Shown in pieces: positions 3,041 through 14,068 of a stretch of 20,752 nt of DNA; positions within the stretch are counted from its first letter, which is position 1, and each line of letters begins with the position of its first letter. Source of the stretch: a virus; the IMG/VR virus record IMGVR_UViG_3300031767_000006, positions 1 to 20,752 of that record, one strand, 5' to 3'. Below the pieces are notes generated by a model. It ran no database searches, was not told where the DNA came from, and saw only the letters and a program-made list of their open reading frames with translations. A program made the translations under genes and the position numbers.

Positions 3041-3601
3041 ATGACAAGCATGATGCACAGAAGTGTCTATCTTATGTTGATCGCCCTTTCAGCAATGGGC
3101 GATCACCAAACTGTTTACCGCACATTGGCGGTGCTGGGTTTTAAGGCACAGCACCGCAACATTTACAGTGTTGATGCGCTCCTAAGGATCATCGAAGAAG
3201 TTGGAGAGTGGCTTCTCGCACGAAAAATCTCTCGCCGTCTCTCCGAGCTAAAAAAGGGAGAATCGGCAGATGCCGTCGCCGGTCTGTGGGCGTTAGCCCA
3301 GGCGAACGAGTATGACGTGGGATGCGCATTCGGCTGTGCTGTCAACTTTGCTGAGGCATGCTGTGGTGAGCACCCGAATCGAGTTGAGCTTTTCAACCAG
3401 ATCGATTTTGATCACGAAGGATTTCGATTTGGTCCTGCCTGGGATTTTTGGGGAGATCTATCTCCCAAAGCAGTCGCGGCAGCGCGCGAGGGATTTGTAG
3501 CGCGCCTGCTCAATATAGCAGGTTTAGGCGACGAACCTGAACTAAAAGGAGGAATAAACGATGACCACGATTCTTCTCAACTCCGCGATGATGCCCGATG
3601 A
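3041..3601 (+). CDS. Hypothetical protein, tandem paralogue B
   Basis: A 186-residue protein starting at ATG 3041 after AAAGGAG (3026-3032); upstream in-frame sequence covers the intergenic hairpin and is unlikely to be translated. It is a paralogue of the preceding gene, sharing KISRRLSELKKGESADAV, CGEHPN and IDFDHEGFRFGPAWDFW. Where paralogue A ends shortly after DEP, this protein continues for about 18 residues that are encoded by the ribosome site and first codons of the next gene in another frame, giving a 41-bp overlap. That tail probably arose by loss of an earlier stop. The DNA at 3078-3105 forms a 9-bp hairpin at the position homologous to the one in paralogue A. Function unknown. 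Confidence 0.6.
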   Translation: MTSMMHRSVYLMLIALSAMGDHQTVYRTLAVLGFKAQHRNIYSVDALLRIIEEVGEWLLARKISRRLSELKKGESADAVAGLWALAQANEYDVGCAFGCAVNFAEACCGEHPNRVELFNQIDFDHEGFRFGPAWDFWGDLSPKAVAAAREGFVARLLNIAGLGDEPELKGGINDDHDSSQLRDDAR

Positions 3602-3947
3602 GGGCCTCTATATCTTGCAGCGAGTGAGCCGCGAGTTCTTCGCAGAACTGGTCGCCGACGCCCACCGGCGCGGCGAATTGCAGAGTTATGTCGGTTACGC
3701 CGAGACCGCTCAGCACATTGAGCGGATTGCTCACGTGCCGACTCCGGTCAACCGGGCGTTTACGCAGCTGCCTGATCAGGCGTTGATCGCGGTTTGCAAA
3801 CTTAAGTACCGGGTTAGCGACCCAGGCGCAAAAGGCAAGCTGCAACCCAGCGAAGACGACTACGAGTATTACGTGGCAACGTATGACCGCAATTGCCTGC
3901 GCTGGAGGATTGTGAATGATGAATCGCAGCCTTCGCAAGCTGCGTGA
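3561..3947 (+). CDS. DUF1874 / AcrIII-1-like protein (putative viral cA4 ring nuclease)
   Basis: A 128-residue protein starting at ATG 3561 behind AGGAGG (3547-3552). It follows the DUF1874 (STIV B116-like) pattern: ILLNSAMMPDEG at residues 4-15, a helix, SYVGYAETAQ at 42-51, VPTPVNR at 59-65, then ALIAVCKLKYRV and KGKLQPSEDDYEYY at about 91-104. AcrIII-1 members of this family bind and cut cyclic tetra-adenylate, the second messenger of type III CRISPR defence, so the predicted role is counter-defence in the cytoplasm. One oddity: archaeal members have a catalytic His in the G-H-x-S/T motif, and here the residue after the glycine is Tyr46. It may use another chemistry, act as a cA4 sponge, or have a different ligand. 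Family assignment is fairly confident, activity is not. The length suits the family, with about 20 extra C-terminal residues. Confidence 0.7.
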   Translation: MTTILLNSAMMPDEGLYILQRVSREFFAELVADAHRRGELQSYVGYAETAQHIERIAHVPTPVNRAFTQLPDQALIAVCKLKYRVSDPGAKGKLQPSEDDYEYYVATYDRNCLRWRIVNDESQPSQAA

Positions 3948-4221
3948 AGTGGTCAAATCCGCCCGGCTAGCAGATCTGCCGGTAGCCAAAGCTCTGAAGG
4001 TTCTTGCCGATATGCCTGAGGCAAGAGCCTTCAAACTCGCGCCCGACGTTCTCCGCCAGATGCTACTTGAAAGTCTCCCGGAGCGGTACGCTGTCTTTCT
4101 ACTTGATCGCGCTGGTTACCGAGTGGAAATGTCGCTTGCTGACCTGGCGTACTTCGCCAGATACGATGAGATATTAGCAGAGCTGGCAGTCTCGGTAATC
4201 CTGTATCTGGATAAGGAATGA
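3916..4221 (+). CDS. Hypothetical protein between DUF1874 and MoxR genes
   Basis: A 101-residue protein starting at ATG 3916 (a second ATG follows at once), 7 nt after GGAGG (3904-3908). It overlaps the end of the DUF1874 gene by 32 bp, and its TGA overlaps the ATG of the AAA+ gene (ATGA), so all three are translationally coupled. The N-terminus is basic and helical (MMNRSLRKLREVVKSARLADLPVAKALKVLADMPEAR); the C-terminus is acidic and hydrophobic (LAYFARYDEILAELAVSVILYLDKE). I see no recognised domain. Its tight coupling to the MoxR-VWA pair suggests it may be a partner of that complex. Confidence 0.6.
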   Translation: MMNRSLRKLREVVKSARLADLPVAKALKVLADMPEARAFKLAPDVLRQMLLESLPERYAVFLLDRAGYRVEMSLADLAYFARYDEILAELAVSVILYLDKE

Positions 4222-5051
4222 TCATGTTTGCGCCCTGGTACACCCCCCGACCATCAGATCGCCTTGTAGCTCGTCTATTGACCGAGCGCAACGGCGACGG
4301 TGTGTGCGCCGTCATCATCACAGGCGCGCCTGGCGTGGGCAAGACATCGTTCGCCCGCGCCCTCGCCGAGGGCATGGGCGGGCGACTCGTGGAGTACTAC
4401 GCTCACCACTGGACCTCAGATGAAGATATGTTCCTGGCGGTCGATCCAGCGCGCGTTGCCGCGATTGCCGGCGGCCACGACATGCCGCTCAGCAATACAT
4501 ACCGACGCGGCGCGCTTCTGCGAGCTACGCTGCTGTCGCGGCGAATGCCGGTCGTCCTGCTCCTCGACGAGTGGGACAAGTCGCCAGAACACTGCGACGC
4601 GCTGCTATTGGAGTTTCTCCAGAGCGGCACAGTACATGGCAGGCACGGCGAGCGCTGGCGCGCAAACACGCGCCAGCTGGCTGTGGTGATAACGAGCAAC
4701 GGTCTGCGCGAGTTGATCGAGCCGCTCCAGCGACGGTGCTTTCGATATGAGATGCCGTACCTGCCGCCGGAAGTGGAGGCCGATGTTCTTCGCAAGGTCA
4801 CTGGCGCGCCCGTCGGCGCGATCAGGTTGGTCGTGAAGGCGATGGGCCTGATTCGCGCGAATGGTCGCTCGTCGCCTTCATTGCAGGAGGGAATGATGCT
4901 TCTGCGTGGGATGGCGCTGGCGAACGGCGTGGACGACGTGCATTTGCTCGTCCGAGGGTATCTGATTAAGGATGCCCAGGATGAGGGCGCACTAAAGTCG
5001 CTGGGTAACCTTGCAGCATTGCTCTGGGGAGAGTGGAAGCGCCGTGGCTAG
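4218..5051 (+). CDS. MoxR-type AAA+ ATPase
   Basis: A 277-residue ATPase. The Walker A is GAPGVGKTS at residues 36-44 and the Walker B VVLLLDEWDKS at about 112-122, followed by a sensor-1-like VVITSNGLREL and an arginine-rich PLQRRCFRYEMPYLPP with the likely arginine finger. Order and length match MoxR ATPases (usually 280-350 residues), which work as hexameric chaperones with VWA-domain partners. ATG 4218 overlaps the preceding stop (ATGA); ATG 4224, two codons on, is better spaced from AAGG (4213-4216) and may be the true start. The VWA gene follows with an 8-bp overlap. Such pairs remodel target proteins or insert metals; the target here is unknown, and no cobaltochelatase large subunit is present. 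Confidence 0.85.
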   Translation: MIMFAPWYTPRPSDRLVARLLTERNGDGVCAVIITGAPGVGKTSFARALAEGMGGRLVEYYAHHWTSDEDMFLAVDPARVAAIAGGHDMPLSNTYRRGALLRATLLSRRMPVVLLLDEWDKSPEHCDALLLEFLQSGTVHGRHGERWRANTRQLAVVITSNGLRELIEPLQRRCFRYEMPYLPPEVEADVLRKVTGAPVGAIRLVVKAMGLIRANGRSSPSLQEGMMLLRGMALANGVDDVHLLVRGYLIKDAQDEGALKSLGNLAALLWGEWKRRG

Positions 5052-6381
5052 AAGATATATAAAGCTCAATCCCAGACGTAAGCATGCCATCTTGCAGATG
5101 ATGGCAGGACGTAACCGCCTGGATGTTGTCATTGACGGTTTTACGGTGGAGTTTCATTATCTACCTGGGTGGAACGAAGTAATGGTTTACGCTCCAAGGG
5201 TCACGCCAGCGATCCAGAGTTATCTGTCGCGCATCCCTCTCGCTTCTGCTGATGACGATTTGTCATCAGCAGAAGCGAGCGTAAATGCGCTCGTGCCGAA
5301 AGACTCCTCACGTTCTCTAGCACATGATGCTAGTGAGAACGCGGATTCTTCGGTATGTGGGGATGGCGAACCCCAAGCAGAATCACAGGGTGATTCTGCT
5401 GGCGATCTCAGTGAGTCACCTGAAGTTCAGGGCGAGGATTTGTCCTCGAACGGCACAAGCCGGGACTCTGAGGCCGCCGAACAACATCCGGGTAGCGCCT
5501 CGTCATTGGGCGACGACGACGCCGAGGAGAGCGTGCCGGATGGCCAAGCGGAGTGCAATGCCTCTGCTGCGGCGTCGCACGCGGCAGAGGAAGCCACCAG
5601 CGGGGCGCTGGACAGCGATGCTGTCCAGCAACGGTGCAAATCCGTTCCGTCCGCTGGCGACGACGCGCCGGCGTCGGAAAACATCCGGCGCACTTTTATC
5701 TCTAGAGCCGAGCTGTCGCGTTTCCCTAAGTCGTCGCACGGCGGTGTGTTCGCGCAATTCTCTGATGTCGAGCTTGACCGCGCGATGATCGCTCGCGCGC
5801 GCCGCGCGTTTCGACGCATGTTCCTGGGCGGCGAGACGAAGCCAGGCCCGCGCTGGAATGCGCGCGCGATTGCAATCAAGAGCGCAGGCTATCTGCGGCA
5901 GTGGACTGCGGACGACCGCAGACGCGAGTCGGGACGACCGACCTTGCTCATCTTGCCGGATGTTTCGGGGAGCATGGGTAAGCTCGCGCGCAGTGTCGTT
6001 GCCTTTGCCGTCGCGTGCTACGGCACGCTCAGCGAGGGGGACATTGTGTGTGTGTCGCACTCGAACGCAGAGCCAGTCGAATACATGCCTGAAAGGTTGT
6101 CGGGCATGAGCTACGAGCAAATCATCAGGCAGCGTAACGTGCGCGCTATCGTAATTGCCGCTGACCACGATGGCGAGGACACGTTTTTTCGGCTCGCTCA
6201 CCTCGTACCGCGCGTGTACTGGCTATCTCCATTCGGCTGCAACCAAATAGAGCGCCCGCGAATCCGCGACACGCGCAAGGTGCTGGCCGACTGGCCAGAG
6301 GACATCCAGCGGCGAGTGATATACGCCGATGGGTGTGGCGACCCAGAGAGCTGCTTGACAGCTCTGGAGATGATGATATAA
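5044..6381 (+). CDS. VWA-domain protein with long acidic linker, partner of the MoxR ATPase
   Basis: A 445-residue protein. I place the start at GTG 5044, which overlaps the ATPase stop (GTGGCTAG); a TTG at 5011 would overlap more and lacks a ribosome site. Residues about 1-60 form a small beta-rich domain. Residues about 65-215 are an acidic Ser/Ala/Glu/Asp-rich linker, probably disordered, whose DNA holds six or more hairpins. Residues about 215-300 are basic and helical. From about 295 to the end is a VWA domain with a perfect metal-ion site, D306-V-S308-G-S310-M, and a later DHDGED segment. The layout (acidic linker before a C-terminal VWA) recalls CobT/ViaA-type partners of MoxR ATPases. 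The TAA stop (6379-6381) overlaps the -10 element of the non-coding RNA promoter. Confidence 0.85.
   Translation: MARRYIKLNPRRKHAILQMMAGRNRLDVVIDGFTVEFHYLPGWNEVMVYAPRVTPAIQSYLSRIPLASADDDLSSAEASVNALVPKDSSRSLAHDASENADSSVCGDGEPQAESQGDSAGDLSESPEVQGEDLSSNGTSRDSEAAEQHPGSASSLGDDDAEESVPDGQAECNASAAASHAAEEATSGALDSDAVQQRCKSVPSAGDDAPASENIRRTFISRAELSRFPKSSHGGVFAQFSDVELDRAMIARARRAFRRMFLGGETKPGPRWNARAIAIKSAGYLRQWTADDRRRESGRPTLLILPDVSGSMGKLARSVVAFAVACYGTLSEGDIVCVSHSNAEPVEYMPERLSGMSYEQIIRQRNVRAIVIAADHDGEDTFFRLAHLVPRVYWLSPFGCNQIERPRIRDTRKVLADWPEDIQRRVIYADGCGDPESCLTALEMMI
5239..5279 (+). repeat. Perfect 18-bp hairpin with 5-nt loop in the VWA linker
   Basis: CTCGCTTCTGCTGATGAC (5239-5256) is exactly complementary to 5262-5279, with loop GATTT. 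It is the longest perfect inverted repeat I saw. It encodes an acidic Ser/Ala/Asp stretch and is the first of a series in the linker DNA. Confidence 0.8.
5311..5629 (+). repeat. Cluster of further short hairpins in the VWA linker
   Basis: At least five more inverted repeats follow: 5311-5341 (6+6 bp with a 2-nt bulge, loop CATGA), 5376-5400 (10 bp, loop CAGGG), 5433-5448 (6 bp, 4-nt loop), 5561-5590 (10 bp with one G-T pair, 10-nt loop) and 5607-5629 (9 bp, loop CGATG). Three of them have 5-nt loops. The stems are unrelated to one another, so this is repeated architecture rather than one repeat family. Confidence 0.7.
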
Positions 6382-6382
6382 T
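6355..6382 (+). promoter_or_regulatory. Perfect consensus sigma-70 promoter for the hammerhead RNA
   Basis: TTGACA (6355-6360) and TATAAT (6377-6382) are both exact consensus hexamers with a 16-bp spacer. The promoter lies within the last codons and stop codon of the VWA gene and points rightward into a 216-bp non-coding stretch. The predicted transcription start (about 6388-6390) falls on the first base-paired nucleotides of the hammerhead ribozyme. Confidence 0.8.
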
Positions 6383-6387
6383 CTATG

Positions 6388-6481
6388 TGCGTCACTGAGA
6401 CGACCTGGAGCTTAGTCTAGCTAGAAGGAATATCAACACAGGTCCACTCAGTCTGACGAGGGGTGGTAGCCCCGAAACGCA
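6388..6481 (+). ncRNA. Type III hammerhead self-cleaving ribozyme
   Basis: All conserved parts are present. Stem III pairs TGCGT (6388-6392) with ACGCA (6477-6481). The cleavage nucleotide is C6393 in the triplet GTC. Stem I pairs ACTGAG (6394-6399) with CTCAGT (6447-6452), continues past a 2x2 internal loop with GACCTG (6402-6407) and CAGGTC (6439-6444), and ends in a loop of about 30 nt. The core CTGACGA is at 6453-6459, stem II is GGGG (6460-6463) with CCCC (6470-6473) around TGGTAG, and GAAA is at 6474-6477. Because stem III is the open end, this is a type III hammerhead. Cleavage is predicted between 6393 and 6394. Hammerheads are known from phage genomes, but one sitting at a transcription start is unusual. 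Confidence 0.85.
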
Positions 6482-6542
6482 ATCCCGTACGAGGGGTTCT
6501 GAAAGAGGAAACGACTATCCCGCTTGAGGGGTTCTAAAAGAA
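6474..6542 (+). repeat. Two tandem 34/35-nt repeats, CRISPR-repeat-like in form
   Basis: Unit 1 (6474-6507) and unit 2 (6508-6542) share GAAACG, ATCCCG, GAGGGGTTCT and AAAG blocks; about 28 of 34 aligned positions match. Each unit can form a small CCC/GGG hairpin. Read on the minus strand they run CTTTCAGAACCCC-N6-GGGATTG-CGTTTC, which resembles CRISPR repeats in length and form, but there is no spacer between them. Unit 1 begins inside the hammerhead (GAAA, stem III). ACGAGGGGT also occurs in the hammerhead core at 6456-6464, so the units may have arisen by duplication from it. Confidence 0.65.
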
Positions 6543-6544
6543 AG

Positions 6545-6586
6545 CACGCGCCCGGTACTGCTAGAGCACCGGGCGCGTGTTGTTTT
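6545..6586. terminator. Strong intrinsic terminator between converging operons
   Basis: CACGCGCCCGGT (6545-6556) pairs perfectly with 6568-6579 around an 11-nt loop. On the plus strand it is followed by TTGTTTT (6580-6586), ending the non-coding RNA and early operon. On the minus strand the hairpin is followed by CTTTCTTTT, so it may also end the late operon, whose last stop codon is at 6598. Confidence 0.85.
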
Positions 6587-6597
6587 GTGAGCGCTTA

Positions 6598-13121: not shown

Positions 13122-14068
13122 GGCAGTGTCGTCACCCCGTTAATGACGCGGATTTGCAGCCAGTTGTTGAGAGGCGCAGCCACGAGCGCTTTGAACGTCA
13201 TCTCGACGGTCATGTTGCCGTCGCGGTCGCCGAACAGCTCCGGGGACTCGGCAATCAGCCCGACAAAGTCGATTCGCAACTCGCGCATGCTGGCTGTCTC
13301 CACGAAGTTGACGCGGATGTTGCGAGCGACTCTGTCCGTCAGCAGTGCATCCACCAAATCCTCGGCGGTCTCGTTGAACTCTGCGGTGATGCTCAGCTGC
13401 GCCTCCCATCGCCCTTCACCCCAGTCAAGGGGCTGCGGGCCTTCAAATATCTTTAGATGCCGGTTGGTGTTAATGCTCAACTCGGCCTCTATCACCGTGC
13501 CCGGTATCTGAGTCGTGCCGTGGGCTGTGCCGACGTTGTCCACGAACCACGATGCGTGCCTTGACAGGACCGGCGTCACGATGCGCGTCGGCAGAGAACC
13601 GGTCAGGGCATTCGCTTGCACGCTTCGTCCGATAAACGCCCAGCTCTCGGTCACCCCAGCATTTGCCTCGTAGCGCAGCGTCCACTCTCTTATGATGCCG
13701 CCGACTACCCTGTACTCCGCACCTGTCGTGCCATACTCTATCGTGTAAATCTGCGGCGCGGCGTAGTTCGTGATCGGCGCATTGAATGTGCGCGCGTTGC
13801 CGCTCGGCGCAACCGGGCCGAACAAGCCAAACAGGCCATAGAGTATGTCCTCGTACGTGCACTGGAGCTCTAGCTCTCCTTCTGCATGACGCTGCGAGAA
13901 GACAATCAGGTCACTCACTGAGCGACCTAGCTCCTCAACCACCGCGTCATTGTGGTTGATGGTGACGCTCCCGTCTTTCACGCCCCGCAAGATGGACGTG
14001 GCAGCGACCGGCGTCGCAAACGCTGTCTGCTGACCTAGCTGAACCCTACGTAGATGAGTCGCTGGCAT
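13118..14068 (-). CDS. Major tail tube protein
   Basis: A 316-residue protein starting at ATG 14068 after AAGGAGAAGG; it overlaps the preceding small gene by 23 bp. The N-terminus (MPATHLRRVQLGQQTAFATPVAATSILRGVKDGSVTINHNDAVVEELGRS) is typical of phage tail tube proteins: Q-G-E/Q-T-FGTPVAA-T--L----. The rest is beta-rich, with LELQCTYEDILYGLFGLFG, EWTLRYEANAGVTESWAFIGRSV and a final NMTVEMTFKALVAA. It is somewhat long because a second related beta domain occupies the C-half (INTNRHLKIFEGPQPLDWGEGRWEAQLSITAEF). It polymerises into the tail tube around the tape measure. Assignment by sequence pattern and gene order. Confidence 0.75.
   Translation of the reverse strand: MPATHLRRVQLGQQTAFATPVAATSILRGVKDGSVTINHNDAVVEELGRSVSDLIVFSQRHAEGELELQCTYEDILYGLFGLFGPVAPSGNARTFNAPITNYAAPQIYTIEYGTTGAEYRVVGGIIREWTLRYEANAGVTESWAFIGRSVQANALTGSLPTRIVTPVLSRHASWFVDNVGTAHGTTQIPGTVIEAELSINTNRHLKIFEGPQPLDWGEGRWEAQLSITAEFNETAEDLVDALLTDRVARNIRVNFVETASMRELRIDFVGLIAESPELFGDRDGNMTVEMTFKALVAAPLNNWLQIRVINGVTTLP

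Follow-up and report, generated by a model that had tools for sequence, protein, structure and literature searches.

A type III hammerhead ribozyme at the head of a predicted phage non-coding RNA gene, accompanied in four related phages by a CRISPR mini-array

The window analysed here is the whole stretch from position 1 to 20,752 (20,752 nucleotides) of the IMG/VR record IMGVR_UViG_3300031767_000006, from a tailed phage. At 6388-6481, on the plus strand (to which all window coordinates refer), it contains an element that is identified from its sequence as a real type III hammerhead ribozyme with a predicted cut between positions 6393 and 6394. The balance of probability tilts modestly towards the surrounding region (6355-6586) being an autonomous non-coding RNA gene, in which a promoter is followed by a self-cleaving hammerhead that would trim or insulate the 5' end of the transcript and leave a leader RNA with a 5'-hydroxyl end. 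In four related phages, the same predicted transcript includes a mini-array of clustered regularly interspaced short palindromic repeats (CRISPR).

The initial annotation had assigned a position to every part of the hammerhead, and all parts were found there when the sequence was read again. Stem III pairs TGCGT (6388-6392) with ACGCA (6477-6481), giving five base pairs in the window copy, and is followed by the cleavage base C6393 of the triplet GTC. Stem I consists of two parts of six pairs each, ACTGAG (6394-6399) with CTCAGT (6447-6452) and GACCTG (6402-6407) with CAGGTC (6439-6444), separated by an internal loop AC/CA (5' side at 6400-6401) and closed by an end loop of 31 bases. The catalytic core CTGACGA (6453-6459; CUGACGA in RNA) leads into stem II, GGGG (6460-6463) with CCCC (6470-6473) around the loop UGGUAG, and then into GAAA (6474-6477), such that 6474-6481 is made up of the GAA of the core and the 3' strand ACGCA of stem III. 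Three helices surround the core, and the assignment to type III follows from the closed ends of stems I and II and the open ends of stem III. A descriptor requiring a cleavage triplet NUH, a stem I of at least five pairs, CUGANGA, a stem II of at least four pairs, GAAA, A15.1 and a stem III of at least four pairs gave a single match in the window and none in 1500 dinucleotide shuffles, both strands being searched, which bears out the earlier claim that the arrangement is unlikely to have arisen by chance. RNA circularisation would need a further hammerhead 3' of this one, which neither the core pattern nor a covariance model found.

Relatives of the phage were retrieved from IMG/VR with the protein encoded directly upstream of the hammerhead, a VWA-like protein, and two further contigs were retrieved with a hammerhead-specific pattern. 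The hammerhead is present in seven phage contigs (the window, L003, L004, L005, L006, L008 and L012), and the alignment and covariation sample comprises only these seven hammerheads, all from related phages. All 11 columns of the catalytic core that were tested are invariant, as opposed to just 6 of 31 in the end loop of stem I; variation in the core is restricted to N7 (C or U) and the cleavage base (C or A), positions that the hammerhead leaves free. When pairs were counted on the fixed structure, 97.6% of cells were paired, versus 20-44% with slid partners. Changes on both sides occur at four pairs, with a covariation score that none of 500 shuffles reached, and a G-C to A-U exchange in stem I divides the phages 4:3. 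The internal loop of stem I reads AC/YA and lies six pairs from the core in all seven, the loop of stem II has five or six bases, and stem III is lengthened by three to six varying and covarying pairs in every phage except that of the window. The comparison for compensatory changes that had been proposed with the initial annotation thus shows all helices kept, including the open stem III of the type III form. A covariance model built from the seven hammerheads matches only those seven sites in the records searched.

The initial annotation had also treated the lack of a covariance-model match as grounds for rejecting the hammerhead, and Rfam cmscan of the window, a 301-base piece and the six relatives did yield no hammerhead at permissive thresholds (E up to 10). 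As a control, phage L048 carries a textbook short type III hammerhead (GUGUGUC ACCGCC..GGCGGU CUGAUGA GGGG..CCCC GAA ACACAC), for which Rfam returned a misaligned Hammerhead_II match below the gathering score. Because Rfam also misplaces this ribozyme, its negative result is regarded as uninformative and is not counted as a refutation, a model match being a means of detection and no defining trait of the family; the long stem I of the present hammerheads is probably the cause. The L048 hammerhead lies at 13473-13548 on the minus strand, directly before a small gene, and the phage is unrelated to the window clade. Contigs L047 and L049 (5956-5982) have in common a hammerhead-like core CTGATGAGGGG..CCCCGAAAC, situated within an extended intergenic region where further sequence also looks structured.

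The hammerhead is embedded in a compact transcription unit. A sigma-70-type promoter (6355-6382), TTGACA-16-TATAAT, has 12 of 12 consensus bases, and the VWA-like gene has its stop codon within the -10 box; transcription is expected to start at about 6387-6389. All seven phages retain the promoter with slight changes, and it ends five or six bases before stem III, so the RNA is expected to start within or just before stem III. Downstream of the ribozyme are two near-identical leader hairpin repeats, a match that arose by chance in none of 100 shuffles: CCCGTACGAGGGGTTCTGAAAG (6484-6505), with a CCC/GGG stem, and 35 bases further on CCCGCTTGAGGGGTTCTAAAAG (6519-6540), whose core CCCGCTTGAGGG is invariant in the seven phages. 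The hairpins could represent repeats that have degenerated, decoys or protein sites. A position at which four relatives carry arrays (6541-6544) is empty in the window and is followed by a terminator-like hairpin (6545-6586) of 15 pairs (6545-6579) with a short T run and the tail TTGTTTT, which the terminator scan itself assigned to the minus strand. The order of consensus promoter, hammerhead, one or two CCCG-N3-GAGGG hairpins and terminator is the same in all seven phages, which supports the earlier proposal that the hammerhead is tied to a specific promoter and repeat RNA. The gene is sited where the early genes (plus strand) and the late structural genes (minus strand) converge. Stops interrupt all three plus-strand frames over 6383-6592, so the transcript is probably not a messenger RNA, and a coding function was rejected on this ground.

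In four of the relatives (L003, L004, L005 and L008) the stretch from the hairpins to the terminator also holds, in the same orientation, a CRISPR mini-array, identified as such by its repeats and its unique, nearly uniform spacers. Each array consists of two or three repeats of the form GTTTCCACGCTCACAAAAGCGTGGCCCCTTTGAAGC with one or two spacers; the six spacers of the four arrays are all different, and are 36-38 bases long as delimited by script or 35-37 if a leading G is assigned to the repeat. The repeats have 35-36 bases, with the stem CCACGCT/AGCGTGG and the tail CCCC[A/T]TTGAAGC. In the window, no repeat of this family is present within 6355-6586, which is not classed as a mini-array; like L006 and L012, the window has a hammerhead and hairpin(s) and no array. 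The pattern of the repeat occurs in IMG/VR only in the four contigs, and among GTDB species genomes the repeat family occurs only in a Planctomycetota metagenome-assembled genome (MAG) and, once, in an Opitutales MAG. The Planctomycetota array follows genes for Csx17/Cas8g, Csb1/Cas7g, Csb2 and a Cas4g-Cas1g fusion and is therefore of type I-G. In stem and tail the phage repeats agree with both MAG repeats, from which they differ in the loop, and by this likeness they are assigned to the type I-G family.

Several searches around the arrays were negative. A wider sample of Planctomycetota contained no further genome with the repeat, none of the spacers of the Planctomycetota MAG array fits the phages of the window clade, and phage transfer RNA genes, sought as a clue to the host, were not found. 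PADLOC, applied to the early genes of the window and not to those of the relatives, recognised no Cas protein. The spacers have no targets in the clade or in INPHARED, and codon-degenerate exact patterns of two of the six found none in IMG/VR. The hammerheads of L047, L048 and L049, which have the same stem II, are followed by no CRISPR repeats within 500 bases. VIPR guide RNAs (PMC13142463) were considered separately and were rejected by eye, as no GGY/NN repeats were seen.

The proposed mechanism would begin while the RNA is being transcribed or shortly afterwards, when it would be cut between 6393 and 6394. In RNA started at the local promoter the cut would take off about 5-7 nucleotides, and in RNA reading through from the VWA operon it would remove the whole upstream messenger. 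The remaining RNA would begin with a 5'-hydroxyl, its first base already held in the bottom pair of stem I. RppH, and the RNases of bacterial RNA decay that depend on a 5'-monophosphate, act poorly on a paired 5'-hydroxyl end, and the product would be expected to escape pyrophosphohydrolase and 5'-monophosphate-dependent decay, so that the ribozyme would cap and insulate the 5' end of a stable leader RNA. The 5'-hydroxyl product of the glmS ribozyme is degraded by RNase J1 in Bacillus, a warning that the fate of such an end depends on the host, and the cap role is put forward with caution. In the array-bearing relatives, host Cas proteins would cut CRISPR RNAs (crRNAs) from the 3' part, aimed at rival phages or plasmids, while the array-less form of the window would produce the capped hairpin RNA alone. 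That a natural ribozyme is a working part of the leader of a phage CRISPR mini-array, with a protected 5'-hydroxyl and with the array-less form included, is judged from sequence to have about an even chance of being correct.

A number of observations weigh against these proposals. Maturation of crRNAs does not need a ribozyme, and Cas processing, which cuts within the repeats, would remove it; since crRNAs need no hammerhead and the array-less forms keep theirs, the job of the ribozyme would concern the precursor or leader RNA. A close relative, L029, whose VWA-like protein is 74% identical, is without the entire cassette. Plain folding of the window copy, with an energy model that omits tertiary contacts, favours by about 6 kcal/mol a rival non-hammerhead fold in which CGUC (6390-6393) pairs with GACG, and stem III of the window is the shortest of the seven; given these two features, the window copy may be slow or decaying. 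Finally, the outer, covarying pairs of stem III lie near the -10 box and perhaps outside the RNA started at the promoter, and their covariation suggests a fit to read-through RNA that is as good or better. Because pairs so near the -10 box covary, read-through RNA may also be a substrate.

The same covariation would be expected if the hammerhead serves mainly to detach the non-coding RNA from the early messenger upstream, which covers the AAA and VWA-like genes, the local promoter being secondary. This is unlikely, though it is a serious alternative: the ribozyme comes immediately after the VWA-like gene and its stop codon, and hammerheads between prophage genes have been proposed to process polycistronic phage RNA (Perreault et al. 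2011, PMC3088659), but the near-consensus promoter immediately before the ribozyme in 7 of 7 phages would be unneeded for mere separation.

It is rather improbable that the RNA is an anti-CRISPR, in which the leader hairpins would imitate the CRISPR repeats of the host, thereby titrating Cas proteins, and the ribozyme would trim the decoy. Hairpins with TCTGAAAAG-like 3' ends do occupy the place of the last array repeat of the relatives (CCCCATTGAAAAG), solitary repeat units are known to work in this way (PMC10651486), and the same phages encode a relative of STIV_B116, of a viral ring nuclease family, hinting at CRISPR pressure. Nevertheless, the stem and loop of the hairpin are unlike those of the I-G repeat, no genome with a hairpin-like repeat was found, and among viral contigs the hairpin motif is confined to the window clade.

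It is more doubtful still that the ribozyme of the window phage is functionless, a decaying relic of an array cassette. The missing array, the shortened stem III and the favoured rival fold would all be in keeping with decay; on the other hand, the catalytic core, stems I and II and the promoter of the window are intact, and the array-less L006 and L012 have a long, well-paired stem III. That the resemblance is due to chance, or that the hairpin is purely structural and does not cleave itself, could be argued from the Rfam result, but is highly improbable given the shuffles, the variation among relatives that obeys the rules of the hammerhead, and the failure of Rfam on the clear type III hammerhead of L048.

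The pairing of hammerhead and CRISPR mini-array combines two elements that are each of a known kind. Hammerheads are known in prophages, where the cleavage of long transcripts of the phage has been suggested as their role (Perreault et al. 2011, PMC3088659). The present ribozymes are like the type III hammerheads of that study and of Rfam clan CL00010 in the core, the NUH site, the three helices, the open stem III and the occurrence in phage DNA. Unlike the prophage hammerheads, which lie between protein genes, the window copy has a long stem I, built of two parts of six pairs each and closed by a 31-base end loop, and starts a non-coding gene that is served by a promoter of its own. Mini-CRISPR arrays that have leaders are likewise known from viruses (Medvedeva et al. 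2019, PMC6858448; reviewed in PMC11656645), and the arrays of the relatives resemble them in having one or two spacers, a promoter-bearing leader, a location between viral genes and, within the early genes of the window, no recognised cas gene nearby; they differ in that the leader holds a ribozyme of self-cleaving type and hairpin repeats, in that the repeats are of the type I-G family and in that the searches found no targets for the spacers; the window itself, moreover, has no array. RNA anti-CRISPRs (Racr) resemble the array-less form, each being a small phage RNA with a promoter, a repeat-like hairpin, a terminator and no spacer, but the hammerhead in the Racr work was only an engineered tool (PMC10651486), whereas the hammerhead described here is natural. 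A Racr is a solitary unit nearly identical to a host CRISPR repeat; the window hairpins, compared with the I-G-family repeat of the relatives' arrays, do not match it.

Full-text searches of the open-access literature found no natural ribozyme in a CRISPR transcript or together with a phage CRISPR array, and to that extent the pairing of hammerhead with CRISPR mini-array is new. If the proposed role is correct, this would be, within the reach of that literature, the first described natural ribozyme built into a CRISPR transcript. Phage hammerheads are widespread without a clear job, and phage mini-arrays are known mainly through their spacers; in the four array-bearing phages described here both occur on one predicted transcript, and the RNA also persists in a shorter form that lacks the array. 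The making of the 5' end of a defence-related RNA is thereby offered as a testable role for a phage hammerhead, and the arrangement would be a naturally occurring parallel to the ribozyme-flanked guide RNAs engineered for genome editing.

The gene upstream of the hammerhead (5011-6381) had been called a phage VWA gene in the initial annotation. Its position directly upstream stands; its identity is read only from the motif DVSGSMG and the adjoining AAA ATPase gene that precedes it (4218-5051), as the protein has no Pfam or PHROG match, and it is therefore termed VWA-like. The low-complexity middle part of the VWA-like protein is strongly kept between relatives.

A STIV_B116-like protein (DUF1874/AcrIII-1 family), above the Pfam cut-off, is encoded at 3561-3947, with copies at L020:2824-3198, L010:3049-3429, L023:1755-2084, L024:9845-10207, L021:8139-8501, L038:157-540 and, on the minus strand, L036:89-418. 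The cut-off is passed in each copy scanned, namely those of the window and five relatives. The GH motif of ring nucleases reads GY in all eight phages aligned. In SIRV1 gp29, the histidine of this motif is the active-site residue His47, and the H47A mutant is inactive but still binds cyclic tetra-adenylate (cA4) (PMC7213978). The phage protein may possibly be a sponge that binds cyclic oligoadenylates instead of an enzyme. Elsewhere in the clade, short palindromic repeats of families that differ at the same place were observed, GTGCA-rich at L004:342-439 and GGTGGAATTTTTCCACC at L008:1799-1872; they resemble fast-changing operator or origin sites.
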